Source: an uncultured Microbulbifer sp. (GTDB lineage Bacteria > Pseudomonadota > Gammaproteobacteria > Pseudomonadales > Cellvibrionaceae). Taken from it: DNA of 64,000 nt. The position numbers and the translations under genes were made by a program. This document shows, one piece after another, positions 10,044 through 21,907 of the stretch (positions are counted from its first letter, which is position 1; each line of letters opens with the position of its first letter). Under the pieces are notes generated by a model. That model saw only the letters and a program-made list of their open reading frames with translations, was not told the origin of the DNA and did not search any database. Where the stretch lies: NCBI RefSeq assembly GCF_947504145.1, contig NZ_CANNGQ010000004.1, positions 248,001 to 312,000 on the forward strand, read 5' to 3'.

Positions 10044-11600
10044 ATGAGCGATAAAAAAGCCCCGCCGTCCTCTACTCCGGAAAACAGTGGCGACAAGAAA
10101 GCCACGGACAAAGATCTGCCCAAGGATGTGCCAGTAGTGACTCGCAAAGCCGAGACCAAGAGCAATTTTGCCAAGGCGGCAAAAGGCACCTCCCAGACCA
10201 GAGGAAAAACCGACGGCAAATCCACTGCGGGAGCCGGCAATAAACCGCCGCGCGCGCGCACCGCAAAAAAAGGCCGCGGGTGGACCTGGTTCTGGCTTTT
10301 GTTACTGGCACTGATCGCCGCCGCCGTGGCCGCCTGGTATCTGGTGCCCGGCGTCCGTCAGGAAGTAGGCCAACACTTGCAGGCGTTACCGGTCGTCGGC
10401 AAACACTTTGCCAGTGATTCCCGCAGCGCCACTAGCCCCACACCGTCTCAGCAAAACACCGCAACCAGCACCAATACGGCAAGCGATTCAGACAGCGCAC
10501 CGTCCAGCAGCGCTACAGTGGATGCCGACACCGGCTCTGCAGCCACCACACAGCAGCAACCGCCACAACCCGAGCAGCCGATGCTGCAGCCTGAAGAGTC
10601 GCGCCCGACCCCGCCACCCTCCGCCACATCACCCTCCTCGCCGGAGTTACCAGCGAATACGTCACCGGTACCGCCACAGGACCAGAGCGCGCAACTGATC
10701 GGCGAATTGCGCCAGCAGCTTACCCAGCAGAACCAGCAGCTGTCCGCGCAGAGCCAGACCATCCAGCAGTTGCAGCAGCAGCTGGCCGGCCTGCAGCGCA
10801 ATGTCACCGCCCAGGGTGCGCGCCTCAGTCAACTGGGGAACGCCAGTCGGGAAGACTGGCAACTGGCGGAGGCAGACTACCTGCTGCGCCTGGCCAACCA
10901 GCGCCTCATGCTCGAACAGGACAGCCGCGCCGCGCTGGGCCTGCTAAACGAAGTGGATACCATCGTGCGCCAGGTGGACCTGCCCGACCTGTACGGTGTG
11001 CGCCAGCAACTGGCGCGGGATATTACTGCGCTCAAACTGGTGGAGAATGTCGATCGCGAGGGACTTTACCTGCGCCTGCGCGCGCTGGAAGAGCAGATGG
11101 TCAAACTGAATATCCAACCCCAGTTCGACCTCGCCAAACGGGATGCCGCAGCAGCTCAGACCCAAGCCGACAATAAAGCAGTGGGCGAGGACCATGTCCG
11201 CTCCAGCTGGGACAACTTCCTCAACTTCCTCAAAGGCTCCGTACGTATTCGCGATGGCGAAGTGGACCCGGTACTGCTGTCTCCGCAGAGCGAAACGCGA
11301 TTCCGCCAGAGCCTGCGCCTAAACATGGAACAGGCTGAGCTGGCGGTACTGCGCGCCGACGACACAGTGTTCAAGGACGCACTCAACCACGCGCGACAAT
11401 TGCTGCTCGATTACGGGGTGGACAACCCCCAGCGCGCAGTGATCCTGCGCGAGCTGGAAGAGCTCAGTCAGGAAACCATCAAAACCGACCTGCCGAACCT
11501 GAGTGCCTCACAGACTGCCCTGCGCAACTACATCAACAGAATGCACAAAGTATCCTCGGGGCAATCCGCCGACAGCGGTAACGGAGGCAGCTACCAGTGA
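10044..11600 (+). CDS. hemX: HemX-like membrane protein (uroporphyrinogen-III C-methyltransferase-like)
   Basis: Inner-membrane protein of 518 residues. A charged lysine-rich cytoplasmic N-terminus (about 1-78) is followed by one membrane helix (about 80-101), a low-complexity S/T/P/Q linker to about residue 220, a glutamine-rich coiled coil (LRQQLTQQNQQLSAQSQTIQ) and the conserved HemX domain (WQLAEADYLLRLANQRLMLE onward). Annotated methyltransferase activity of HemX is not supported by any SAM-binding motif here, and its function is unknown. It overlaps hemY by 4 bp. Confidence 0.9.
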   Translation: MSDKKAPPSSTPENSGDKKATDKDLPKDVPVVTRKAETKSNFAKAAKGTSQTRGKTDGKSTAGAGNKPPRARTAKKGRGWTWFWLLLLALIAAAVAAWYLVPGVRQEVGQHLQALPVVGKHFASDSRSATSPTPSQQNTATSTNTASDSDSAPSSSATVDADTGSAATTQQQPPQPEQPMLQPEESRPTPPPSATSPSSPELPANTSPVPPQDQSAQLIGELRQQLTQQNQQLSAQSQTIQQLQQQLAGLQRNVTAQGARLSQLGNASREDWQLAEADYLLRLANQRLMLEQDSRAALGLLNEVDTIVRQVDLPDLYGVRQQLARDITALKLVENVDREGLYLRLRALEEQMVKLNIQPQFDLAKRDAAAAQTQADNKAVGEDHVRSSWDNFLNFLKGSVRIRDGEVDPVLLSPQSETRFRQSLRLNMEQAELAVLRADDTVFKDALNHARQLLLDYGVDNPQRAVILRELEELSQETIKTDLPNLSASQTALRNYINRMHKVSSGQSADSGNGGSYQ

Positions 11601-12850
11601 AACGCTTCCTTTTTTTCGCGCTGGTACTACTGCTCGGTGGCGCACTTCTCGCAGAAGCCATGCGCTCCTATCCCGGCTATGTGCTACTGACTATCGGTGG
11701 CGACGCCGGCAAACGTATCGAGATGAATCTGTGGGTCGCGGTAGGCGGGCTGGTACTGGGCGTTCTCGCCCTGTTCCTCGCCATCTGGCTGCTGCGCAGC
11801 CTCGCTCGCGCCATTGAGGGCAGCGTCAGCCGTATCCGCTTTGGTCGCAGTCGTATGGCGCGTCGTCGTCTCACCAACGGCCTGGTGGAATACATGGAAG
11901 GCAACTGGGCACGTGCCCGCCGCCTTCTGCTGAAAAGCGCCGCACGCTCCGACGCACCCATCATCAATTACCTGGCCGCCGCGCGCAGCGCATTTGAGCT
12001 GGGCTACCGCGACGAAGCCAACGAACTACTCGCCAAAGCCGAAGCCACCGGCGACGACACCCAGCTCGCCGTCGCCATCAGCCAGGCCCGCATGCAATTA
12101 CTCGACAAGCACTACGAGCAGTGCATTGCCAGTCTGCAACGCGCCATGCAGGAAGAACCCAACCATCCGGCGCTACTGCAGTTATTGCGCCAGGCCTATT
12201 ACCACATCGGCGAGTGGAACGGCCTCAGGGAATTGCTGCCACGGCTGGAAAAACACGGCACCATGCCCGAATCCCAGCTTCAGCAACTGGAGCTCGAGGT
12301 CTACCAGAACCTGCTGCGCGAAGCCGCAAATCGCAAAGATAAAGAAAAACTCCGTGAGATCTGGCAAAGCCTCAACGGCCGCTGGCAGCGCAATATCGAA
12401 CTGCGCAATCTCTATGGGGAAATGCTGCATAAGATAGGTGACGACGTAGAAGCAGAAAAGCATCTGCGCTGGATTCTGAACCGGGAATGGCGTGGGGATA
12501 CCGTACGCCTCTACGGCCACCTCACCGAGGCCGACGCCAACCAGCAACTGTCGGTAGCCGACGGCTGGCAAAAGGAGTACGGAGAGAACGCCGACCTCCT
12601 CACCTGCCTCGGCCGCCTGTGCCTGCGCAACGAAATCTGGGGCAAGGCGCGGCAGTATTTTGAGAAAAGCCTGCTGCTGCGTTCTGACCCGGTTACCTCT
12701 GCAGAGCTTGCCCGCTTACTGTTTGCCCTGGGAGAGAAAGAACAGGCCGCACGCCTCTACGAACAGGGCCTGCTGCAGGCCGTATCCAATCTGCCGAAGC
12801 TACCCCTGCCCGATCAGAGCACCGGCATGCTCAGCACCAAAGCGTCCTGA
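11597..12850 (+). CDS. hemY: HemY family TPR membrane protein
   Basis: Membrane-anchored protein of 417 residues with two N-terminal helices (about 3-20 and 40-62), then a HemY_N region (RIRFGRSRMARRRLTNGLVE) and helical TPR-like repeats to the end (for example EEPNHPALLQLLRQAYYHIG). It is not the protoporphyrinogen oxidase also called HemY in Gram-positive bacteria. Its role in late haem synthesis is inferred from its constant position at the end of hemCDX. The start overlaps the hemX stop. Confidence 0.92.
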   Translation: MKRFLFFALVLLLGGALLAEAMRSYPGYVLLTIGGDAGKRIEMNLWVAVGGLVLGVLALFLAIWLLRSLARAIEGSVSRIRFGRSRMARRRLTNGLVEYMEGNWARARRLLLKSAARSDAPIINYLAAARSAFELGYRDEANELLAKAEATGDDTQLAVAISQARMQLLDKHYEQCIASLQRAMQEEPNHPALLQLLRQAYYHIGEWNGLRELLPRLEKHGTMPESQLQQLELEVYQNLLREAANRKDKEKLREIWQSLNGRWQRNIELRNLYGEMLHKIGDDVEAEKHLRWILNREWRGDTVRLYGHLTEADANQQLSVADGWQKEYGENADLLTCLGRLCLRNEIWGKARQYFEKSLLLRSDPVTSAELARLLFALGEKEQAARLYEQGLLQAVSNLPKLPLPDQSTGMLSTKAS

Positions 12851-12988: not shown

Positions 12989-13165
12989 TCAGCCGGCCCG
13001 ACCACCTGGGCCGAGGAAAAACCACGCAACAACACCGATGATCGGAAAGACCAAAACAATCAACACCCACACCAGCTTTTTAAGACCGCTCGCCGAACTC
13101 TGCACGATCTTGATGATGGCGTAGATATCTACAATAAGAATCAGTAAGCCAAGCAAACCTTCCAT
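12989..13165 (-). CDS. Small PLDc_N-type membrane protein, 58 residues
   Basis: Short gene found by reading the minus strand: MEGLLGLLILIVDIYAIIKI, then KKLVWVLIVLVFPIIGVVAW, ending FFLGPGGRAG. It has two membrane helices separated by a short basic loop, and the PxxG(x)xxWFFLG pattern of the phospholipase D nuclease N-terminal (PLDc_N) family, which also occurs as free-standing small proteins. An AAGGAG ribosome-binding site lies 6-7 bases before the ATG. Function unknown. It lies between hemY and the cassette region, with no attC site next to it. Confidence 0.75.
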   Translation of the reverse strand: MEGLLGLLILIVDIYAIIKIVQSSASGLKKLVWVLIVLVFPIIGVVAWFFLGPGGRAG

Positions 13166-13222: not shown

Positions 13223-13624
13223 TCACTCCACCCGTTGCCAGACCTCATATTCAACCCGAACATCATCCTCCCAGCGGGAATTGCGCCAAACGCCCTCATC
13301 AATTTCCGCCACAAATGTAAAACGCGCCCCGGGCTTCTCACCGAATGAGTTAAACGTTAATTCCTCAACGTATTGCCCCCCAGAAAAAGTGTAGGTACCC
13401 GATCCAGATGCCCAAAAAGCATCCGCCTTCATCGAAGTAAAACTGAAGTAAGAGCCGGAAATAATCTTCAATGACTTGAGGCCGAGCGATTCATAGGCAA
13501 TCATCTCACCATGCTCATTACGGTATTCCCCAGCCACCAGCTCCCACACACCTTCAACATCGGACGCCATGGCATCCATCGACAAAATAGCGCTAAACAA
13601 TAAAAACACAAAAAATTTTTTCAT
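13223..13624 (-). CDS. Secreted hypothetical protein, lipocalin-like beta protein
   Basis: 133 residues with a clear signal peptide (MKKFFVFLLFSAILSMDAMA, cut near residue 20). The mature part opens with VEGVWELVAGEYRNEHGE and is dominated by predicted beta strands (GSGTYTFSGGQYVEELTF), recalling small lipocalin-like or DUF4488-type proteins; I cannot assign a family with certainty. It is AT-richer than the hem genes and lies at the distal end of the cassette island, but no attC follows it. Confidence 0.6.
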   Translation of the reverse strand: MKKFFVFLLFSAILSMDAMASDVEGVWELVAGEYRNEHGEMIAYESLGLKSLKIISGSYFSFTSMKADAFWASGSGTYTFSGGQYVEELTFNSFGEKPGARFTFVAEIDEGVWRNSRWEDDVRVEYEVWQRVE

Positions 13625-13785: not shown

Positions 13786-14067
13786 TCAATTCGTTTCAAA
13801 GATTTGGTAATAACGCTCCGCTCCGCTGGAAACCTGCCCCCATTTAGAGCCCCTCACTCTATCCTGATGCTCGTTAAAGGTTTCCCGGCTCGAAAATTCT
13901 TCATACACATTAAACCGATTATTATTCACCGCATCTTGCTCTACAATGAATCTCAGACAGCCGCTCTCTTTTCTTGTGAGATTGATATGAATAGGTAACT
14001 CATTTAGAACTGCTTCAAGATCAAGCTCGGAAACCAGTAAATACCCCTCTAAAATTACTTTGCTCAA
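13786..14067 (-). CDS. Antibiotic biosynthesis monooxygenase (ABM)-fold protein
   Basis: Small ferredoxin-like protein. I prefer a TTG start at 14065-14067 (SKVILEGYLLVSELDLEAVL), 93 residues, because it has an AAAAGGAA site 8 bases upstream and matches the beginning of the ABM domain; the frame continues to an ATG at 14109. The stretch ESGCLRFIVEQDAVNNNRF, then YEEFSSRETFNEHQDR, is the ABM signature. Members include quinol and haem-degrading monooxygenases and many uncharacterised proteins, so the substrate is unknown. It sits at the distal end of the integron-like island. Confidence 0.7.
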   Translation of the reverse strand: MSKVILEGYLLVSELDLEAVLNELPIHINLTRKESGCLRFIVEQDAVNNNRFNVYEEFSSRETFNEHQDRVRGSKWGQVSSGAERYYQIFETN

Positions 14068-14158
14068 TATTCGATTCCTTTTCGGTAAATCGCTCACCCG
14101 GCAGGCCATCTCGCGAAAAGCGATAGAATACGGCCAACTTCAAGAACACTGTTATAAG

Positions 14159-14701
14159 TCAGAACCTGATTCCCGCATTGAGATTAAATAACAGGACACG
14201 GGCTACCGTTTCACCAGGACTACCGACAAATTGAAATTTCACTTCAGGTCCCAGTGTAATATTATTTCTGAAAATCAATCCGCCTTTAAAAGATGCCTCA
14301 GCCATAGACCGAATTTTATTTTTTTCAATGCCGAATTCAGCTGCCCCAACTCCAGCTGTGCAACCTAAATATGCATTTAGGTCATCATCTATAGTGTACT
14401 CTTGGACAAAGCTAACCCCAGCCGATATTGATTTATAATCATGGACACTCTCAATTTGAGAACTCCCGTCCGGATCAAGCAAGGTAATATCAACGTAATA
14501 TGGCTTGGAGAAAGGCACCCAGCGCAGGCCTTTCGCAGCGTTAGAATCGAGGCTTAACTTCGAATATCGGTTGCCGTTGACTTCGTACTCATCCGCATCA
14601 GCTTTAACCGTAGCCGATGGAGCGTATGAGATGATCAATTCATTCGCAGAACAAGTAACTGCGGCGAATAATATTAGAGGTAAAAGATGAATTGCTTTCA
14701 C
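14159..14701 (-). CDS. Secreted outer-membrane-like hypothetical protein
   Basis: 180 residues if started at the GTG at 14699-14701, which gives a signal peptide (KAIHLLPLILFAAVTCSA). The frame stays open upstream to 14785, but that part lies inside an attC site and encodes a non-family-like leader, so I reject the longer start. The product is rich in short beta strands and ends in GIRF with a terminal phenylalanine, as outer-membrane barrel proteins do. Family unknown. It is the cassette gene immediately beyond attC-H; no clear attC follows it, only a weak TTATAAC. Confidence 0.6.
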   Translation of the reverse strand: MKAIHLLPLILFAAVTCSANELIISYAPSATVKADADEYEVNGNRYSKLSLDSNAAKGLRWVPFSKPYYVDITLLDPDGSSQIESVHDYKSISAGVSFVQEYTIDDDLNAYLGCTAGVGAAEFGIEKNKIRSMAEASFKGGLIFRNNITLGPEVKFQFVGSPGETVARVLLFNLNAGIRF

Positions 14702-14713
14702 TATTTTACCCGT

Positions 14714-14831
14714 ATAACGCCCAGCGCAGGCGCAGCCAGCGCGGAGCGCATTTTGTGTTAATGTTTGAACGCCAGCGGGTAACATAAAAGGTGCGTAGCG
14801 TTGGCTGTCGCTCTGCCGCTGATTGTTAGCA
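14714..14831 (-). repeat. attC-H, family I
   Basis: About 118 bp. In the minus direction it begins GCTAACAATCAGCGG and ends GCTGGGCGTTATAC. The arms CAGCGGCAGAGCGACAGCC and GGCTGCGCCTGCGCTG pair imperfectly. It shares its sequence with attC-D and attC-E. It follows the lipoprotein cassette gene (stop at 14843). Confidence 0.8.
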
Positions 14832-14842
14832 CCTTTGACGAG

Positions 14843-15550
14843 CTAAGGGGCCAAATAATTTGTGATAGTAATACTTTGAATATCAACCAAATCTGAAGAA
14901 CCATCATAGTCACGGAGATTATCATTCAGCTCCCCAAGTTGATCAGTAAACTCATTCAGCTGTGGGTAGTAATCGCTTGATAAAACAGTTTCTTTATCGC
15001 GCCCAGAAAAAAGAACCGCCTCTACATTTGTTAAGACGTTGCCGCGCACCAAATTATCATATGTACTCTTAGTGAAACTTCCATGATAAAGCATAGTCAA
15101 CTGTAAATACCCGTCCACATTGGTGAACTCATACGAAAGATCGCGTCCTTCAATAGTGCAACACCAACCTACAGCATCCCCATAGCTATACGTAAAGGAG
15201 TACTCTGTTTGGCCGCAAATTTCAGAGTCGTTTACACTCCGACAGCCCGTACTATAAACGAGCGCAAAGTCCTGCCCCATAACATCACCACTTCCATCTG
15301 TAGCCACCACAACTTTTATTCGGATATTGTGGGCGTCTTCTCGTGACACGTTATTTGCAAATCGCACAACGACCTCAAATGAAGGGGGGTCACTTGAAAG
15401 TATTTCGGAGGAGGTAAAGCTTTCTACTTCAGGGAGCTTATCTACTGGATCAGGACCGTTATTGTCGTTACTGCTGTTGCCGCCGCCACATGCGAACAGT
15501 AGACCCGCAATAGAAGCGAGAGTGATCAAATGTAGAATTTTACTAATCAT
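14843..15550 (-). CDS. Hypothetical lipoprotein in gene cassette
   Basis: 235 residues with a lipoprotein signal (SIAGLLFACGGG; acylated cysteine about residue 21) followed by a glycine, serine and asparagine-rich linker. The rest shows no family I recognise; it contains several cysteines (CRSVNDSEICGQTE and GWCCTIEG) that could form disulfides, consistent with export. The attC-H site lies just past its stop codon. The product is probably anchored in the outer membrane or periplasm. Confidence 0.65.
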   Translation of the reverse strand: MISKILHLITLASIAGLLFACGGGNSSNDNNGPDPVDKLPEVESFTSSEILSSDPPSFEVVVRFANNVSREDAHNIRIKVVVATDGSGDVMGQDFALVYSTGCRSVNDSEICGQTEYSFTYSYGDAVGWCCTIEGRDLSYEFTNVDGYLQLTMLYHGSFTKSTYDNLVRGNVLTNVEAVLFSGRDKETVLSSDYYPQLNEFTDQLGELNDNLRDYDGSSDLVDIQSITITNYLAP

Positions 15551-15597
15551 ATATTACATCTACGTTTTGGCTAATATATTTGGGGCAAAACTAAGTG

Positions 15598-15711
15598 CTA
15601 ACGCCGCGATCAGCCGCGGCTAACCTTGCGCACTAATGGTAGCGAAGCGACTGCACGTAAAGTGCGTAAAGTGCGTAAAGTTAGGCGTCGGCCTGCAGCG
15701 CATTGTTAACC
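15598..15711 (-). repeat. attC-G, family II
   Basis: About 114 bp. Minus direction: starts TTAACAATGCGCTGCAGGCC and ends CGCGGCGTTAGCAC; the arms are imperfectly complementary. The TAA of the upstream gene (15706-15708) is part of the left core. It contains a short tandem duplication (AAGTGCGT twice). Same family as attC-C. Confidence 0.8.
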
Positions 15712-16278
15712 ATTGCCCAGGCACTGTCGAAGAACAAAAAATGTTTCTTCGTCAATTGGCCGTTCCGAACGGTATACTCGATCTACCAGCTTCACAAAGT
15801 ATACTCTTTGCAAATGTGGCCATTTTTCCAGAATTTTTGATGTGGCCGTAACGCTAGAAACCCCTTTCTTTTTGAGCGTATTTAAATTGTAAAGTGCAGA
15901 ATCGTAATAACTGCATGTATAAATTTTTTCCGAGTATTCAAGGCCAACTTTATCAAGGCAATTTGAAAGCATTATGGATTTAGCATGAACATGATTATTA
16001 ATCGTTTCCGACTCTAAAGTATTTACGAGCTCATCCCTAAGATCATTGCGAAATTCAATATCAGCTTTATGCTGCCGCAACTTTTCCAACTCTCCAGTTC
16101 TTTCGAACACGGTTGAGAATATGTACTCTTGGTATTTTGAATTTATATAACATTGCCACGCTCTATCACTGGGATCCCGTTCAAGCGCTGCACTATAGAA
16201 ACCCTCGAGCCTATCGTATGAATGCGCGTTTACCACTGTAAAAATAGTAGATAGAAATGCAATTATTTTCAGTTTCAT
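15706..16278 (-). CDS. Secreted hypothetical protein in gene cassette
   Basis: 190 residues with a signal peptide (MKLKIIAFLSTIFTVVNAHS). The mature protein is mainly helical and charged, with four cysteines (WQCYINS, LSNCLDK, YTCSYY and RQCLG near the end) compatible with two disulfides. No family recognised. Its TAA stop forms part of the attC-G left core, the usual compact cassette layout. Confidence 0.6.
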   Translation of the reverse strand: MKLKIIAFLSTIFTVVNAHSYDRLEGFYSAALERDPSDRAWQCYINSKYQEYIFSTVFERTGELEKLRQHKADIEFRNDLRDELVNTLESETINNHVHAKSIMLSNCLDKVGLEYSEKIYTCSYYDSALYNLNTLKKKGVSSVTATSKILEKWPHLQRVYFVKLVDRVYRSERPIDEETFFVLRQCLGNG

Positions 16279-16291
16279 TACTTACCTATGG

Positions 16292-16323
16292 TTAACGCCT
16301 TCCCCTGCAGCACCTTGTTACGT
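16292..16323 (-). repeat. attC-F, truncated site
   Basis: Only about 32 bp: in the minus direction CGTAACAAGGTGC followed closely by GGAAGGCGTTAACC. Both outer core elements are present but the paired arms and loop of a normal attC (over 100 bp here) are gone. I read it as an internally deleted attC between the DUF3592-like gene and the next cassette. Confidence 0.6.
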
Positions 16324-16345
16324 TTGGGGTTCCTATTTTGATCGA

Positions 16346-16816
16346 TTAACGGGCCAATACCGAAGTTAAAAACCATCCGTAGCCAAATACCGCAATGCTA
16401 TAAATGATGAACAGTACCGGTATCACCACGGCGGACAGCCTACTAAAACGCTCCATCTCGATGTATGCATCTTTAGGGGATCCCGGAATCACGCGTACTT
16501 TCAGCTTTTCGCCTTCTTTATACCGACTCAGTAGATCATGCTCGATATTATTATCTTTAAACAGCTGAGGCGAACGAAGTAATGGTGTGTCAGAGCGGTA
16601 CTTCGCTCCACTGTATTCATACTCAAACTCAATCTGAGCCTCGTATACTCTCTGCCCTTCAGTATTCGTAAAATTTTTCAGCTTTGATGTGGTAATTTTT
16701 GCATCAACTAAAGGTAACGAGTTCCATCTCTTATTTACTCGTGAATAGACAAAGGTTTGAGCAAAACCCAAGCCAAAAATTACAACTAACCCAATGTACT
16801 TCAAAATTCCAAACAT
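16346..16816 (-). CDS. DUF3592-like membrane protein in gene cassette
   Basis: 156 residues: an N-terminal membrane helix (LKYIGLVVIFGLGFAQTFVY), a central extracytoplasmic beta domain with YEAQIEFEYEYSGAKYRSD and the conserved-looking YKEGEKLKVRVIPGSPKDAY, then a C-terminal helix (VVIPVLFIIYSIAVFGYGWF). This arrangement and the G-x-x-v-x-v-y-y-n-P-x-x-P-x-x-A pattern match DUF3592 proteins, of unknown function. Its attC is the truncated attC-F. Confidence 0.7.
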   Translation of the reverse strand: MFGILKYIGLVVIFGLGFAQTFVYSRVNKRWNSLPLVDAKITTSKLKNFTNTEGQRVYEAQIEFEYEYSGAKYRSDTPLLRSPQLFKDNNIEHDLLSRYKEGEKLKVRVIPGSPKDAYIEMERFSRLSAVVIPVLFIIYSIAVFGYGWFLTSVLAR

Positions 16817-16837
16817 CGTATTTTCTCACTAGGAAAC

Positions 16838-16963
16838 GTAACGCCCAGCGCAGGCGCAGCCAGCGCGGAGCGCATTTTGTGTTAATGTTTGAGCGACAGC
16901 GAGTAACATAAAAGATGCGTAGCGTTGGCTGTCGCTCTGTCGCTCTGTCGCTGATTGTTATGT
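16838..16963 (-). repeat. attC-E, family I
   Basis: About 126 bp. Minus direction: starts CATAACAATCAGCGACAGAG and ends GCTGGGCGTTACG. Nearly the same as attC-H and attC-D, with a short duplicated TCGCTCTG unit in one arm. Confidence 0.8.
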
Positions 16964-16968
16964 GGGAC

Positions 16969-17436
16969 TTACTCGTGGTACTTCCGGATTACTGCGACCT
17001 TGCCCTGATCCATTTCCAAGATTTCCATCATGGTTTGACTATACTCGACTTTTTGATTGCTTTGAGGATGGATACCCTTTGCCTGATCCTTGTACCTTAG
17101 GGCAATTGCCGAGTCATTGAATATAAAAACTTCAAGAAGTTCAGCGCTATATTCCGTATGAGAACCCAGATAGAAGATCATACCCTTGCGCATGGACTCT
17201 TTACCCCCAGGCTTGCGAGTACCATCTGTTTCCCAAGGTAAATGGGTATGACCTATATCATCGGTTAGGAGCTTAAGATAGCTTTCCAGATCTTCATTGG
17301 TAGCATCGGGAGATTGTGTGGCCACCATTTTTTCAAAATAGTTGTGCGCGAAAGCCTTCAGATCTTTTCCTGTATCAGAGGCATAGAGTTGACTAGAAAT
17401 CAATAATAGAATTACAGCCAATAATACTCTTTTCAT
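16969..17436 (-). CDS. Secreted SnoaL/NTF2-fold-like protein in gene cassette
   Basis: 155 residues with a signal peptide (KRVLLAVILLLISSQLYAS). The mature part follows the NTF2/SnoaL-like pattern: helices first (LKAFAHNYFEKMVATQS, then LESYLKLLTDDIGHTHLPWE), then strands (EVFIFNDSAIALRYKDQAKG and EILEMDQGKVAVIRKYHE). Such proteins often bind small ligands, but catalytic residues cannot be assigned. It is followed by attC-E. Confidence 0.65.
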   Translation of the reverse strand: MKRVLLAVILLLISSQLYASDTGKDLKAFAHNYFEKMVATQSPDATNEDLESYLKLLTDDIGHTHLPWETDGTRKPGGKESMRKGMIFYLGSHTEYSAELLEVFIFNDSAIALRYKDQAKGIHPQSNQKVEYSQTMMEILEMDQGKVAVIRKYHE

Positions 17437-17462
17437 TTAGAACTCCGCTTCTCGATCTTCAC

Positions 17463-17587
17463 ATAACGCCCAGCGCAGGCGCAGCCAGCGCGGAGCACTT
17501 TTTGTGTTAATGTTTGAGCGCCAGCGAGTAACACAAAAGGTGCGTAGCGTTGGCTGTCGCTCTGCCGCTTATTGTCTTATTGTTAAG
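17463..17587 (-). repeat. attC-D, family I
   Basis: About 125 bp. Minus direction: starts CTTAACAATAAGACAATAAG and ends GCTGGGCGTTATG. It shares arms with attC-E and attC-H; the left side has a short ACAATA duplication. The upstream gene's TAA (17583-17585) lies in the left core. Confidence 0.8.
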
Positions 17588-18224
17588 CACTTGGATCACT
17601 GATATTCGACCAGGCATCGTGTGGGATTATGTCGATACCTAGATCATCATAGACCTCGGTAGGGCGCCAGCTACGATGTTTTTTATTTAAAAGATCATCT
17701 TCCTCTCGCGTAATCCAAACCACCCGGTAATACTTTATAAGTATGTGATAGTAGGTTTCCTTGTCGATAGGATCATGCTGATGGAATACATCTCTAAAGA
17801 ATGAAATTGGCGTCCAATGCTCATACCTTAGATTTTTGAATACTTCTCTTGTACTTTTATCCTTCACTTCGAAGGGTAATTTCCCAGTTATATCCTCGTA
17901 GCTTTCTTTCTTCTCCAAGAGATCCAATGCTTTTTTTGAGATAAACGGAAAATCTTTCCACGGCCATTCACGAACCACTTCGTTACCGACAAATGCAAGG
18001 AAACGATCTCCATATAAGTCCTTATTGTTACAATATATTTTGTGAAGAAGCTCGAGAACTTCAGCAAGATGGAGCATTCTTTTTTGGATATTAGCAACAA
18101 CTTGCGACTCTGAAATTTCTCCTTCACTCGAAGAATCACAGGAAGGTCGCTTGCTCATTTTGAGCATCTTGGTGCCACTTTTTTCCCACTGATTTCTTAC
18201 TAAGATGGCTTTATCTTCACTCAT
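17583..18224 (-). CDS. Hypothetical cytoplasmic protein in gene cassette
   Basis: 213 residues, no signal peptide or membrane helix. It starts with a serine-rich charged region (about 1-40) followed by a helical part (VVANIQKRMLHLAEVLELLH) and an aromatic-rich C-terminal half (NLRYEHWTPISFFRDVFHQH, then YYHILIKYYRVVWITREEDD). I do not recognise a family. It is AT-rich relative to the flanking chromosome. It is the only clearly cytoplasmic cassette product apart from the GFA-type protein. Its stop codon overlaps the attC-D core. Confidence 0.6.
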   Translation of the reverse strand: MSEDKAILVRNQWEKSGTKMLKMSKRPSCDSSSEGEISESQVVANIQKRMLHLAEVLELLHKIYCNNKDLYGDRFLAFVGNEVVREWPWKDFPFISKKALDLLEKKESYEDITGKLPFEVKDKSTREVFKNLRYEHWTPISFFRDVFHQHDPIDKETYYHILIKYYRVVWITREEDDLLNKKHRSWRPTEVYDDLGIDIIPHDAWSNISDPSA

Positions 18225-18243
18225 ACTACTTACCTGAATGTGC

Positions 18244-18357
18244 TTAACGCCGCGATCAGCCGCGGCTTACTTTGTGTGCTTTTTGCACGAAAATAGGAGC
18301 GCAGCGACCGTGCGAAAAGTGCACAAAGTAAGACGTCGGCTGCATTGCATTGTTAGA
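18244..18357 (-). repeat. attC-C, family II
   Basis: About 114 bp and the clearest site. Minus direction: left core CTCTAAC overlaps the stop codon of the upstream gene; right core GTTAAGC fits GTTRRRY exactly. Between them CAGCCGACGTCTTACTTTGT pairs with ACAAAGTAAGCCGCGGCTG, and GTGCACTTTTCGCAC with GTGCAAAAAGCAC, leaving a small loop. Confidence 0.85.
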
Positions 18358-18838
18358 GCTGCCCCTCAAGGTCTTGCTTAATGATACTTAAACTCACCGA
18401 ACTACTAAGCGGTGTTGTATTGATGCTTAAAGTAGCTCCGCTTTTTAGCTTCCAAGCAATTCTTGGATACTCGCCTTTATTCTCTGAAACACTAACAATC
18501 TCTCCTTCAGGCTCCAAGTATCTTTGATACTTTTGAAAGCTGAAAGATGCAGACTCTGAATCTGGATATTTCAGATTAAGAAGTTGGCTCGTTACAATCG
18601 AGTTAATGCAGGAATACATAATTAATACAGGATATCCATCATGGACTCCGTTAAAAGCCAGCGTATCTCCTTTTCTAAGATTCACAATAATTGATTTATC
18701 AATCTCTTTGGAGCCCAGAGAGCGCTCCACTTCTTTGACGTATGAACACTTATCTCCCAGGTCAATCCCGCGAATTTTCTCCGCGTAAGCGTGACCGGAT
18801 AGCGTAAAGAGAATAAATAAAGTAGTTGCGACTTTCAT
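18353..18838 (-). CDS. Secreted hypothetical protein in gene cassette
   Basis: 161 residues with a signal peptide (KVATTLFILFTLSGHAYAEK). The mature part begins IRGIDLGDKCSYVKEVERSL, contains a second cysteine in LIMYSCINS, and is otherwise beta-rich. Pattern is that of small periplasmic proteins with one disulfide; no family recognised. Its TAA stop is the first part of the attC-C left core. Confidence 0.6.
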   Translation of the reverse strand: MKVATTLFILFTLSGHAYAEKIRGIDLGDKCSYVKEVERSLGSKEIDKSIIVNLRKGDTLAFNGVHDGYPVLIMYSCINSIVTSQLLNLKYPDSESASFSFQKYQRYLEPEGEIVSVSENKGEYPRIAWKLKSGATLSINTTPLSSSVSLSIIKQDLEGQL

Positions 18839-18843
18839 AGCTC

Positions 18844-18982
18844 TAACGCCGCGAGCAGCGGCAGCTTACTTTGGGCGCTTTATGCGCAAAAATGGGAGCG
18901 AAGCGACCTGCGCATAAAGTGCACAAAGTAAGCTGTCCGGTGGAGGCCCGCAGGGCCGGAACGAACTGCCTCGCTTTGTTAA
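18844..18982 (-). repeat. attC-B, family III
   Basis: About 139 bp. Minus direction: starts TTTTAACAAAGCGAGGC and ends GCTCGCGGCGTTAGAG. It shares the GCAGCTTAC / GTAAGCTG arms with attC-A and has an extra GC-rich segment near the left core (a CGGCCCTGCGGGCC hairpin). Confidence 0.78.
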
Positions 18983-19404
18983 AACTTCCCTGGCAGCGCC
19001 GGAAACTCCGGGCTACCCTGGATGCCATCAACCCAAGTACATCTATCTTCACAAAAAATTCTATCATCTGGCGTAATGTGTACATCTTCATTGAGACTTC
19101 CGGCCGGTACGACTAAAAATGTACCTAACCGGTTTACATATGGCACGCTAGAACCACATACTTTACAAAACTGTTTTGCCCAGCTTTTAGCGGACTCCAG
19201 CTCGAAGCGCTGGATTAGCTCTTTTCCCGAACGCCAAGAAATATTTTCGGGTTGGGTAAAAATGCTCGAAGCATGGGCAGAACCTGTAGCGTGCCTACAT
19301 CTAGAACAATAACAGATATGAAATGAAGAGATTTCTCCATCTATTTCATATTTGACGGCTCCACATAAACATTGACCTGAAGCCTTCTCAAATTTTCGAC
19401 TCAT
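18979..19404 (-). CDS. GFA-family (glutathione-dependent formaldehyde-activating-like) protein in gene cassette
   Basis: 141 residues. Zinc-binding cysteines follow the GFA/CENP-V pattern: GQCLCGAVKYEIDG (about 10-23), CYCSRCRHATGSAHASS (about 32-48) and FCKVCGSSVPYV (about 79-90). Family members bind zinc and many are annotated as glutathione-dependent enzymes, but few have a proven reaction; substrate here is unknown. The ATG start gives the usual family length. GFA genes are common cargo of chromosomal integrons. It is followed by attC-B. Confidence 0.85.
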   Translation of the reverse strand: MSRKFEKASGQCLCGAVKYEIDGEISSFHICYCSRCRHATGSAHASSIFTQPENISWRSGKELIQRFELESAKSWAKQFCKVCGSSVPYVNRLGTFLVVPAGSLNEDVHITPDDRIFCEDRCTWVDGIQGSPEFPALPGKF

Positions 19405-19423
19405 TTTCTGGCCTCATTAGTTT

Positions 19424-19564
19424 TAACGCCGCCGGCAGGGGCAGCTTACCTTGTGCGCGTTTTGCGCAAAAATGGGAGCGCAGCGACCTGCGCAAAACGT
19501 GCACGAGGTAAGCTGTCCCGCGGAGGGCCGAAGGCCCGTAGCAAATTGCCCGGCCTTGTTATGC
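19424..19564 (-). repeat. attC-A, family III
   Basis: About 141 bp. Minus direction: starts GCATAACAAGGCCGGGC and ends GCCGGCGGCGTTAAAAC. Arms GGACAGCTTACC and GGTAAGCTGCC pair, with CGTGCACG-type inner arms and a GGGCCTTCGGCCC hairpin on the left. Confidence 0.78.
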
Positions 19565-19565
19565 A

Positions 19566-19889
19566 TTACTCGGCACGGACTTTGCCGATTACCTCGGCAC
19601 TACTTATCTCAAGACACAAGCCGCCAGCATAAAGGCAACCATCTTTCACAAAAGGTTGTGAACCGTAAGTATCTTGGCCAATTTTTTCTATAGCCTCAGA
19701 TAACGGAACACCAACTAAATTTTTATTAGCAACGATAATCGCTTGATCCAGCATCTTTTGAGACGTGTCATCACTTGCGGCCTGGTACGTCAAGGTAATC
19801 CCGTGATCCAATTTTGCGAATGCATATGCAACAAACCAACCGATATTACTCAAAACCAACAGCATTATGAGCGCTGTATTCTTCTTCAA
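19566..19889 (-). CDS. Exported or membrane-anchored hypothetical protein, first visible cassette
   Basis: 107 residues starting with TTG at 19887-19889, which has an AGGAG site 10 bases upstream. An N-terminal hydrophobic segment (ALIMLLVLSNIGWFVAYAFA) acts as a signal or anchor; the remainder is a small globular region with two cysteines (KDGCLYAGGLCLEISS). No family recognised. It is the cassette nearest the expected head of the array; a GTTATGC just upstream (about 19906-19912, minus) may be the boundary of the preceding recombination site. Confidence 0.6.
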   Translation of the reverse strand: MKKNTALIMLLVLSNIGWFVAYAFAKLDHGITLTYQAASDDTSQKMLDQAIIVANKNLVGVPLSEAIEKIGQDTYGSQPFVKDGCLYAGGLCLEISSAEVIGKVRAE

Positions 19890-19934
19890 TGACTCTCAAC
19901 TCCTAGAGATGCATAACAGTTTTATTCAAAAGCC

Positions 19935-20038
19935 CCAGATCTAGGCAGACTGCCTAGATCTGGAAGGACATTTCCAGTATTAGGCAAAATGCCTATATCT
20001 GGATATATGGGTGGAGCCTAAATTTCCACATCTAGGCA
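19935..20038. repeat. Cluster of 13-bp dyad repeats at the array head
   Basis: A perfect 14-bp inverted repeat with a one-base spacer (CCAGATCTAGGCAG at 19935-19948, CTGCCTAGATCTGG at 19950-19963) is followed by an imperfect copy (19974-20002; CCAG and TAGGCA pair, three centre mismatches, AAA loop) and a half copy (CCACATCTAGGCA, 20026-20038). The half copy encodes the last residues of the gene at 20018-20404. They could be recombinase sites, protein-binding sites or transcript-end hairpins. Confidence 0.75.
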
Positions 20039-20404
20039 TTGCTCAACAAGTCCTTCGACGATCCTGTGTCCCAGGTTCGCGCTTTCCGCCAGCCTTCTAT
20101 TCGCCGCCCATGCCTGGGCTGATTGGCTCCACCGACCGCCGATACGACGAACTTCGTTGCGTAAATGTGTTTCTTCGAATCCGATTTTCAACGCCACCCA
20201 TTTTTTGTCCGGCGTGTGCCGAGGGAGAGCTCTCTCTTGCCTTTTATAGGCATCGCGCGCGGATACGATGATTTCTACCGTGGTGTAGACGGTTTTTTTG
20301 CAGGGCGACCTTCTGTAGCGAACGGCACAGAGCTGCTGTCCGTACTTTTCGGAGTACCGCTTGGTGCCGTCATCTCCGGGTTTAAAGGTTTTTATAACGT
20401 CCAT
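20018..20404 (-). CDS. Unrecognised small basic protein next to dyad repeats
   Basis: 128 residues. It starts MDVIKTFKPGDDGTKRYSEK, has a basic strand-rich N-terminal half (LCAVRYRRSPCKKTVYTTVE) and a C-terminal half with the pattern WVALKIGFEETHLRNEVRRI followed by GGRWSQSAQAWAANRRLA. I recall similar small proteins in other proteobacteria, often in accessory regions, but know no function. The basic composition suggests nucleic-acid binding (inference). It lies between ubiD (40 bp away) and the cassette array, where an integron integrase would be expected, and its last codons fall in a 13-bp repeat. No attC follows it. Confidence 0.65.
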   Translation of the reverse strand: MDVIKTFKPGDDGTKRYSEKYGQQLCAVRYRRSPCKKTVYTTVEIIVSARDAYKRQERALPRHTPDKKWVALKIGFEETHLRNEVRRIGGRWSQSAQAWAANRRLAESANLGHRIVEGLVEQCLDVEI

Positions 20405-20443
20405 GTTTCCTCCGCTGTCCTAGCATCTATCCATGTTGTTTTT

Positions 20444-21907
20444 TTAAAGCCCGAGTTTGTCCCAGATCTCATCCACTTTTTGCGTTACTTCTGGATCTTT
20501 TACAATCGGGCGCCCCCATTCCCGTGCTGTTTCCCCTTCCCATTTATTGGTGGCATCAAATCCAATTTTTGATCCCAGGCCGGAGACCGGTGAGGCGAAG
20601 TCGAGGTAGTCGATTGGGGTGTTTTCCACCATGACAGTGTCCCGCGCCGGGTCCATTCTTGTGGTCATGGCCCAGATCACATCATTCCAGTCCCTCGCGT
20701 TGACGTCATCGTCGGTAACAATCACGAACTTGGTGTACATGAATTGGCGCAGAAAGGACCACACGCCCATCATTACGCGCTTCGCATGACCCGGGTATTG
20801 CTTCTTCATGGTGACAACGGCCAGGCGATAGGAGCAGCCCTCGGGTGGCAGATAGAAATCGACGATTTCTGGAAACTGCTTGCGCAGAATCGGTACGAAG
20901 ACTTCGTTCAACGCTTCACCCAACACGGCGGGCTCATCGGGTGGGCGGCCGGTATAGGTGCTGTGGTAGATGGGATCTTTACGGTGGGTGATTTTTTCTA
21001 CGGTGAATACCGGAAAGCTGTCGACTTCGTTGTAATAGCCGGTGTGGTCGCCATATGGGCCCTCGTCCGCCATATCTTCCGGGTAGATGTATCCTTCCAG
21101 CACGTATTCAGCGCTGGCAGGCACTTGCAGGTTGCTGAGCCTGGCTTCTGCCACTTCGGTTTTGCCGCCGCGCAATAGACCTGCGAAGGCGTACTCAGAT
21201 AGCGTATCGGGAACTGGGGTTACTGCGCCAAGAATGGTCGCGGGGTCGGCGCCGAGTGCCACAGCAATGGGGAAGGGCTCCCCCGGGAATTGCTGTTGCC
21301 AGTCGCGGAAATCCAGAGCGCCGCCGCGGTGGGACAGCCAGCGCATAATCAGGCGGTTTTTACCGATAAGCTGCATGCGGTAAATGCCGAGGTTCTGACG
21401 TTTCTTTTCCGGGCCGCGAGTGATGACCAGCGGCCAGGTGACCAGAGGTGCGGCATCGCCCGGCCAGCAGGTCTGAATCGGCAGGGCTGTGAGATCGACG
21501 TCTTCGGCGCTGATTTCATACTGCTGACAATCGGCCTTGCTCACCACCTTCGGGCCCATGTTCATGACCTGTTTAAAGATGGGCAGCTTGTCCCAGGCGT
21601 CGCGGATACCCTCTGGCGGCTGCGGTTCTTTCAGGAATGCGAGCAGTTCGCCCACTTCCCGCAGTTCGCTGACGGATTCGCGCCCCATACCCAAAGCGAC
21701 ACGTTCGGGGGTACCAAACAGGTTGGCGAGTACCGGTGTGTCGTAGCCCACGGGGTTTTCAAACAGCAGTGCGGGGCCACCGGCGCGCAATACGCGGTCG
21801 GCAATTTCTGTCATTTCCAGGTAGGGGCTGACGGGGTGTTTGATGCGTTTCAGGAGGCCGCGCTTTTCCAGTAATCGGATGAAGTCGCGCAGGTCTTTGT
21901 ATTTCAT
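20444..21907 (-). CDS. ubiD: 4-hydroxy-3-polyprenylbenzoate decarboxylase UbiD
   Basis: Decarboxylase of ubiquinone synthesis that uses prenylated FMN made by UbiX. The 487-residue product starts [20 protein letters not shown], the standard UbiD N-terminus, and has the conserved stretches [40 protein letters not shown] and [20 protein letters not shown] and DPARDTVM near the C-terminus. Length is normal. It marks the chromosomal right edge of the cassette island. Confidence 0.96.

Follow-up and report, generated by a model that had tools for sequence, protein, structure and literature searches.

The 64,000-nucleotide stretch of an uncultured Microbulbifer sp. analysed here (contig NZ_CANNGQ010000004.1, positions 248,001 to 312,000; referred to below as the window) raises the question of how a row of integron cassettes can stand between hemY and ubiD with no integrase gene beside it. 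From 19916 to 14150 on the minus strand, the window contains nine cassettes in a row and eight attC-type sites in a single orientation (Table 1). The first-pass annotation of this DNA had seen in these sites either a cluster of attC sites lacking integrase (CALIN) or part of a split chromosomal integron, and the second option gained support from an intI elsewhere in the genome, from related attC types and from a shared cassette. As judged from the sequence, the array has an attI core at its head and no adjoining integrase, and the same attI core and a shared cassette are present at a distant intact intI. We consider that the window array is an orphan attI platform, i.e. the recombination half of a split chromosomal integron that would be served by IntI in trans, and we give this reading a probability of about 0.7.

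The attI core at the head of the array

The array starts TGAATAAAACTG|TTA, the predicted crossover lying between 19917 (G) and 19916 (T), and its 12-base core is identical to that beside the intI of the same genome (L009, 6751-6762). The junction with the first cassette, TGAATAAAACTG|TTATGCATC, shares 21 identical bases with the junction beside this intI, 12 of them to the left of the crossover and the remainder reflecting first cassettes with the same end. To the left of the core, the window leader and the intI-linked attI differ by eye. The polarity of the array had been recognized in the first-pass annotation, which expected an integrase on the side near 20 kb; the polarity held and the attI core lies on that side, and in place of an integrase we found there the core, a leader made of iterons and a small gene that is conserved, none of which had been noticed before.

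No intI was detected within the window, as had been claimed, and the genome-wide search that had been proposed revealed an intact intI on contig C8 (41465-42406, 411.9 bits, no stops), the single IntI over the cut-off in this genome (G000). By reading of its neighbourhood it adjoins a groEL-like gene, and a cassette array lies behind it. Related attC types occur in the window array and the C8 array, and the GFA cassette (cassette 2) is present in both, with 97.6% identity over 572 bp. The GFA gene was also found in the hemY-side array of G005 (81%; L109/L016) and, weakly, at L080 (44%) and L154 (40%). The other eight of the nine cassette genes had no match at E 1e-10 in the fetched loci, except in the window copy L127, and relatives carrying the same genes in the same order were thus not found.

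The cassettes themselves are consistent with those of an integron. When the bases after each G|TT were compared with the R'' of the same cassette, a test in which four bases agree by construction, the complementary runs were 9, 9, 9, 9, 8, 9, 9, 8 and 6, whereas 72 pairings of a cassette with the R'' of another gave 4.2 on average and never more than 6. Eight of the nine cassettes were therefore clear, and cassette 9, with a run of 6, only equalled the best wrong pairing. Cassette starts complementary to their own R'' are characteristic of units that were once circular. Seven of the eight attC sites are full-length (110-138 bp), the site of cassette 6 has shrunk, and a terminal R'' without a good R' closes cassette 9. 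An attC model (R1) built from the 7 full window sites and 15 sites of the intI-linked array, and distinct from the IntegronFinder model, scored these 7 sites at 67-123 bits, in part by construction. A profile search with the full sites detected no further attC in the window, and an Rfam scan of the window matched nothing.

The hemY-ubiD site and other attI-headed arrays

Forty-eight Microbulbifer genomes were compared, 42 of which have an IntI over the cut-off. Forty-six were comparable at the hemY-ubiD locus, the two omitted being G019, in which ubiD had no match, and G040, whose hemY and ubiD lie far from each other; split assemblies were followed to the contig ends, and G034, G038 and G039 contributed the ubiD side only. 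In the 35 genomes that have both genes close on one contig the interval measures 1.8 to 30.6 kb, and by comparison of coordinates none of these 35 intervals, all readable whole, contains an IntI over the cut-off. The small protein encoded beside ubiD is present in 25 of the 48 genomes (23 uninterrupted, G014 with an internal stop and G041 broken), and in 23 genomes its gene lies within the hemY-ubiD interval or the fetched parts of it. Sites of the attC type (nhmmer, E 1e-4) were found in the interval of 22 of the 23 genomes with the small gene there versus 1 of the 23 without it, hand-compiled counts on which the Fisher test was based. In each fetched attC-bearing interval the attC lie on one strand only and are directed away from ubiD. 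G018 and G041 have the small gene elsewhere in the genome, followed again by a core and attC, and in G018 the end-complement test gave no link between the two.

Whether the site has been used was approached by comparing 22 loci in three parts: the small gene, the leader (from the gene stop to the G) and the sequence after G|TT. In the G001/G002 pair, gene and leader were both 93% identical and the first 95 bases after the leader 51%; in G025/G028 the values were 88%, 89% and 48%. All 231 pairs averaged 62% in the leader and 51% after G|TT, and the 22 best pairs showed 48-59% after G|TT. An end of similarity at the predicted crossover is what would be expected if different cassettes had been inserted time and again at a single attI, and because even the best-conserved pairs differ after G|TT, the site appears to have been used since those pairs parted. 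In 15 of 23 genomes the platform core ends in the same eight bases as an intI attI core of that genome, versus a mean of 8.2 genomes when the labels were permuted (p 0.001); labels were typed by hand in this test, G025 (no IntI) and G020 (core unread) were omitted, and undetermined intI sites counted as misses.

These data bear on the usual view of a CALIN, according to which a complete integron at ubiD would have lost its intI by deletion and the array would be its remnant. PMC9024848 and PMC11389934 present the loss or translocation of an integrase as the paradigm for CALINs, and some relatives do have, elsewhere in the genome, fragments of intI or copies interrupted by stops. Against a remnant stand the absence of an over-cut-off intI between hemY and ubiD in the 35 genomes, the different sequences after G|TT in the best-conserved pairs, and a leader that by eye resembles the intI-linked attI in the 12-base core alone and has instead iterons and a gene under purifying selection. 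We disfavour this explanation and regard it as unlikely.

Some loci show other states of the site. On the ubiD side of L121 the core reads GATACAAATG|TTA; this locus belongs to G026, the single genome with attC in the interval but no small gene there. At L076 (G022), repeats and a sequence resembling a core, CCAAATAAAGCTG|TTA, come after ubiD with neither small gene nor attC, possibly an empty or decayed site. At L093, from G011, which is closely related by HemY (96%), the leader region is by eye decayed and other sequence replaces the array.

Orphan attI platforms appear not to be confined to this locus. An R1 scan of G000, G007 and G017 gave many attC clusters, whose numbers are a lower bound since the clusters were taken among 150 of 368 matches listed. 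Seventeen array heads were readable (8 in G017, 5 in G007 and 4 in G000), five more G000 clusters starting at contig ends, and an attI-like core was found at the start of all 17. The end-complement test is independent of the core and yet pointed to it in 11 of 13 newly fetched heads; in the exceptions, L170 and L172, the attC detected first is that of a later cassette. By genome coordinates, four of the 17 heads lie beside intI, three beside the small gene and ten beside neither. A module of about 250 columns is common to five of these ten orphans (L164, L166, L169, L171 and L174) and the intI attI; identity by block is 50-81% and drops from 81% to 36% at the far edge of the module.

That cassettes entered a chance secondary attG site behind ubiD, its likeness to attI being coincidental, seems very improbable. 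Insertion at attG has already been described, reportedly by Loot et al. in 2024; against it in the present case are a core identical over 12 bases to that of the attI in this genome, the recurrence of the arrangement at 21 other loci, the attI-like core at every readable array head and the five orphan sites with the module of the intI attI.

The five module-bearing loci are copies of the intI-type attI module that head arrays elsewhere in the chromosome with no intI. Several of the orphan sites lie, by eye, just behind terminator-like hairpins. L167 and L172 revealed a second, diverged IntI in G017 and G007, with 42-46% identity to the groEL-side IntI and a different attI core.

The iteron leader and the small gene

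The leader between the core and the small gene consists of palindromic A/T-rich repeats with the family motif RTGNCNANATNTNGNCAY. At up to 2 mismatches, this motif occurs 75 times in 22 leaders versus 0.3 times in 30 mononucleotide shuffles, the motif having been derived from the same leaders in which it was counted. The copies are often spaced 18-21 bp, and at the loci worked out the last copy lies 13-17 bases ahead of G|TT. In the whole 64 kb only two matches with up to 1 mismatch were found, both at the array head (19989 and 20022), the latter inside the end of the small gene. The iteron variants differ, by eye, according to the type of small protein.

The gene itself encodes 128 amino acids and, as the codon comparison indicates, is under purifying selection, with ratios of nonsynonymous to synonymous substitution rates of 0.04-0.15 in nine of ten relative pairs, the tenth pair being saturated. 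The protein had no Pfam, NCBIfam or PHROG match. Among 21 family members Pfam gave weak matches only, the commonest being DUF5710 (8 of 21, best E 0.0024), a weak hint of a relation; NCBIfam gave isolated weak matches, and a sequence search of the PDB gave nothing convincing (best E 0.25). Plasmid and phage collections contained no relative at E 1e-5, and two distant homologs found none among plasmids at E 1e-3. Three short-protein relatives were found on viral contigs (L159-L161), the match being confined to residues 2-48 of the small protein.

As to its role, the small protein may bind the phased iterons, a weaker step of the proposal than those that concern IntI. Because the leaders of the window type are, by eye, without the module of about 250 bp found around the groEL-linked attI, the protein might help to position or admit IntI at the hemY-ubiD site, which we take to be its likeliest role and to which we assign an even chance. 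Its main alternative role, control of cassette transcription, is tentative. According to a rival explanation, the small gene and the iterons would be an autoregulated promoter module that substitutes for Pc and stands outside recombination, with IntI using the core alone. The small gene is indeed co-directional with the array, the iterons abut it, and an inverted repeat at 19965-19933 scores terminator-like. Nevertheless, no sigma-70-like promoter that could be a candidate Pc was found in 19850-20600, and three leaders outside the motif derivation, L162 and L163 (G017) and L179 (G000), also carry iterons, by eye a variant of those at the small-gene locus of their own genome, 14-17 bases from G|TT and with no small gene near. 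Iterons beside gene-less cores at the spacing of the linked loci look like part of the site, and we take the promoter module to be possible, though doubtful. G026, which has no small gene beside ubiD, and the ten attI-led arrays with none nearby indicate that this gene is not required in cis.

Relatives of the small protein also occur outside the genus. In a class sample of 369 genomes, a distant homolog was found in 12 besides G000, about seven being near full length and without stops. An IntI over the cut-off is present in 11 of these 12 genomes versus 126 of 356 without a homolog (p 1.2e-4, or 4.8e-5 with G000), and by coordinates IntI and homolog are on different contigs or over 170 kb apart, although draft contig breaks could mask adjacency. 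The DNA downstream of several homologs contains repeats rich in A/T, a core (for example CTGTTAGGC) and sites resembling attC. Four of 12 loci in a first run (L147, L149, L152 and L154) and four of 12 in a second (L149, L152, L153 and L154) had a matching cassette start; in the second run there was none upstream, and shuffles gave 0-5 per 100. The R' of L152 is doubtful, L148 fits by eye only, L155 shows a partial likeness by eye, the sequence of L150 stops 159 bases downstream, and L151, L156, L157 and L158 had no matching start. Surveys around G090 and G172 found the small protein in 2 of 4 and 5 of 20 genomes, respectively. The small gene of G172 is, by eye, directly followed by a transposase-like gene.

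Table 1. Features of the array and its flanks, in window coordinates (attC positions are those at which R'' starts)
Feature	Position	Strand	Description
ubiD	20444..21907	-	conserved flank, leading side of array; match in 47 of 48 Microbulbifer genomes
small gene	20018..20404	-	128 amino acids; same direction as array; between iteron leader and ubiD
iteron leader	19935..20010	-	palindromic A/T-rich repeats; includes palindrome 19935-19963
attI core (predicted)	19917..19928	-	TGAATAAAACTG
cassette 1	19427..19916	-	open reading frame (ORF) 19566-19889 (Imm58-like, below cut-off); attC from 19561
cassette 2	18847..19426	-	GFA-family gene 18979-19404; attC from 18981
cassette 3	18248..18846	-	ORF 18353-18838; attC from 18355
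cassette 4	17467..18247	-	ORF 17583-18224; attC from 17585
cassette 5	16842..17466	-	ORF 16969-17436; attC from 16960
cassette 6	16296..16841	-	DUF3592 gene 16346-16816; 28-bp attC 16320-16293
cassette 7	15602..16295	-	ORF 15706-16278; attC from 15708
cassette 8	14718..15601	-	ORF 14843-15550; attC from 14828
cassette 9	14150..14717	-	ORF 14159-14701; degenerate end site (R'' only, 14154)
hemY	11597..12850	+	flank, trailing side of array

Between hemY and the array, two small genes (PLDc_N-like 12989-13165 and 13223-13624) also adjoin hemY in a number of relatives and probably represent the ancestral hemY flank; the ABM gene at 13786-14109 had no match in the fetched loci.

A proposed split integron and its relation to known systems

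According to the proposed mechanism, IntI from the groEL-side locus would act in trans on the hemY-ubiD platform, adding cassettes behind the iteron leader, at G|TT, and using attC to remove them. Several observations weigh against this proposal or narrow it. The platform core could not be matched to the intI core in 8 of the 23 genomes, a number that includes the undetermined intI sites; G025 retains platform and array yet has no IntI over the cut-off; and the Fisher, permutation and pairwise counts take no account of relatedness. G047 has the small gene with no attC by nhmmer and only a weak R1 match, in G026 attC and an attI-like core occur beside ubiD with no small gene, and ten attI-led arrays have no small gene nearby. 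The window leader is among the least regular, with one motif match at up to 2 mismatches. The AlphaFold2 fold of the small protein is unreliable (mean predicted local distance difference test scores of 50 and 62), the models being uninterpretable past about the first 45 residues. Outside the genus, a cassette start matching a downstream attC was found at five of 12 loci when both runs are combined.

In PMC9024848 a CALIN is defined by at least two attC sites with no integrase nearby, attI not entering the definition; attI is said there to be poorly described outside class 1, and CALINs (2,961 versus 2,760 complete integrons) are proposed to be degraded integrons. CALINs are also said, in PMC11389934 and PMC12444791, to be mobilised in trans. 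The window fits such a cluster in its eight attC sites in one orientation with no intI nearby and differs from it, as described there, in its head, where an attI-like site is accompanied by iterons and by a gene of its own. With a sedentary chromosomal integron the window shares the attI core, the attC array and the mostly unknown cassette genes, whereas its integrase is not in cis and its leader is of another kind. The recurrent CALIN loci of Xanthomonas (secF, lamG and others; PMC12444791) are likewise arrays away from intI at conserved chromosomal positions, but in the part of that paper available, and compared by description only, no attI or leader gene is described. In the genome of Saccharophagus degradans the repeat of the integron is found again at five satellite sites, for which the accessible text of PMC2386152 describes no attI or leader. 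A literature search in which few subscription papers were covered, some of the sources being available in part, found no report of attI heading integrase-less arrays.

Taken together, these results raise the idea, which we hold to be about as probable as its opposite, that integrons in these bacteria are multi-site systems, with one or two integrase genes serving dispersed orphan attI sites, that one class of these sites would be a new kind of attI, which combines phased iterons with a core and has a dedicated small DNA-binding protein, and that the platform extends to several other gammaproteobacterial families. With its iterons, the small protein is a concrete candidate accessory factor for an att site of an integron. 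If many CALINs turn out to be headed by an orphan attI, they would be functional docking points in a cassette system that spans the genome, and an integron as a unit would extend beyond one locus.

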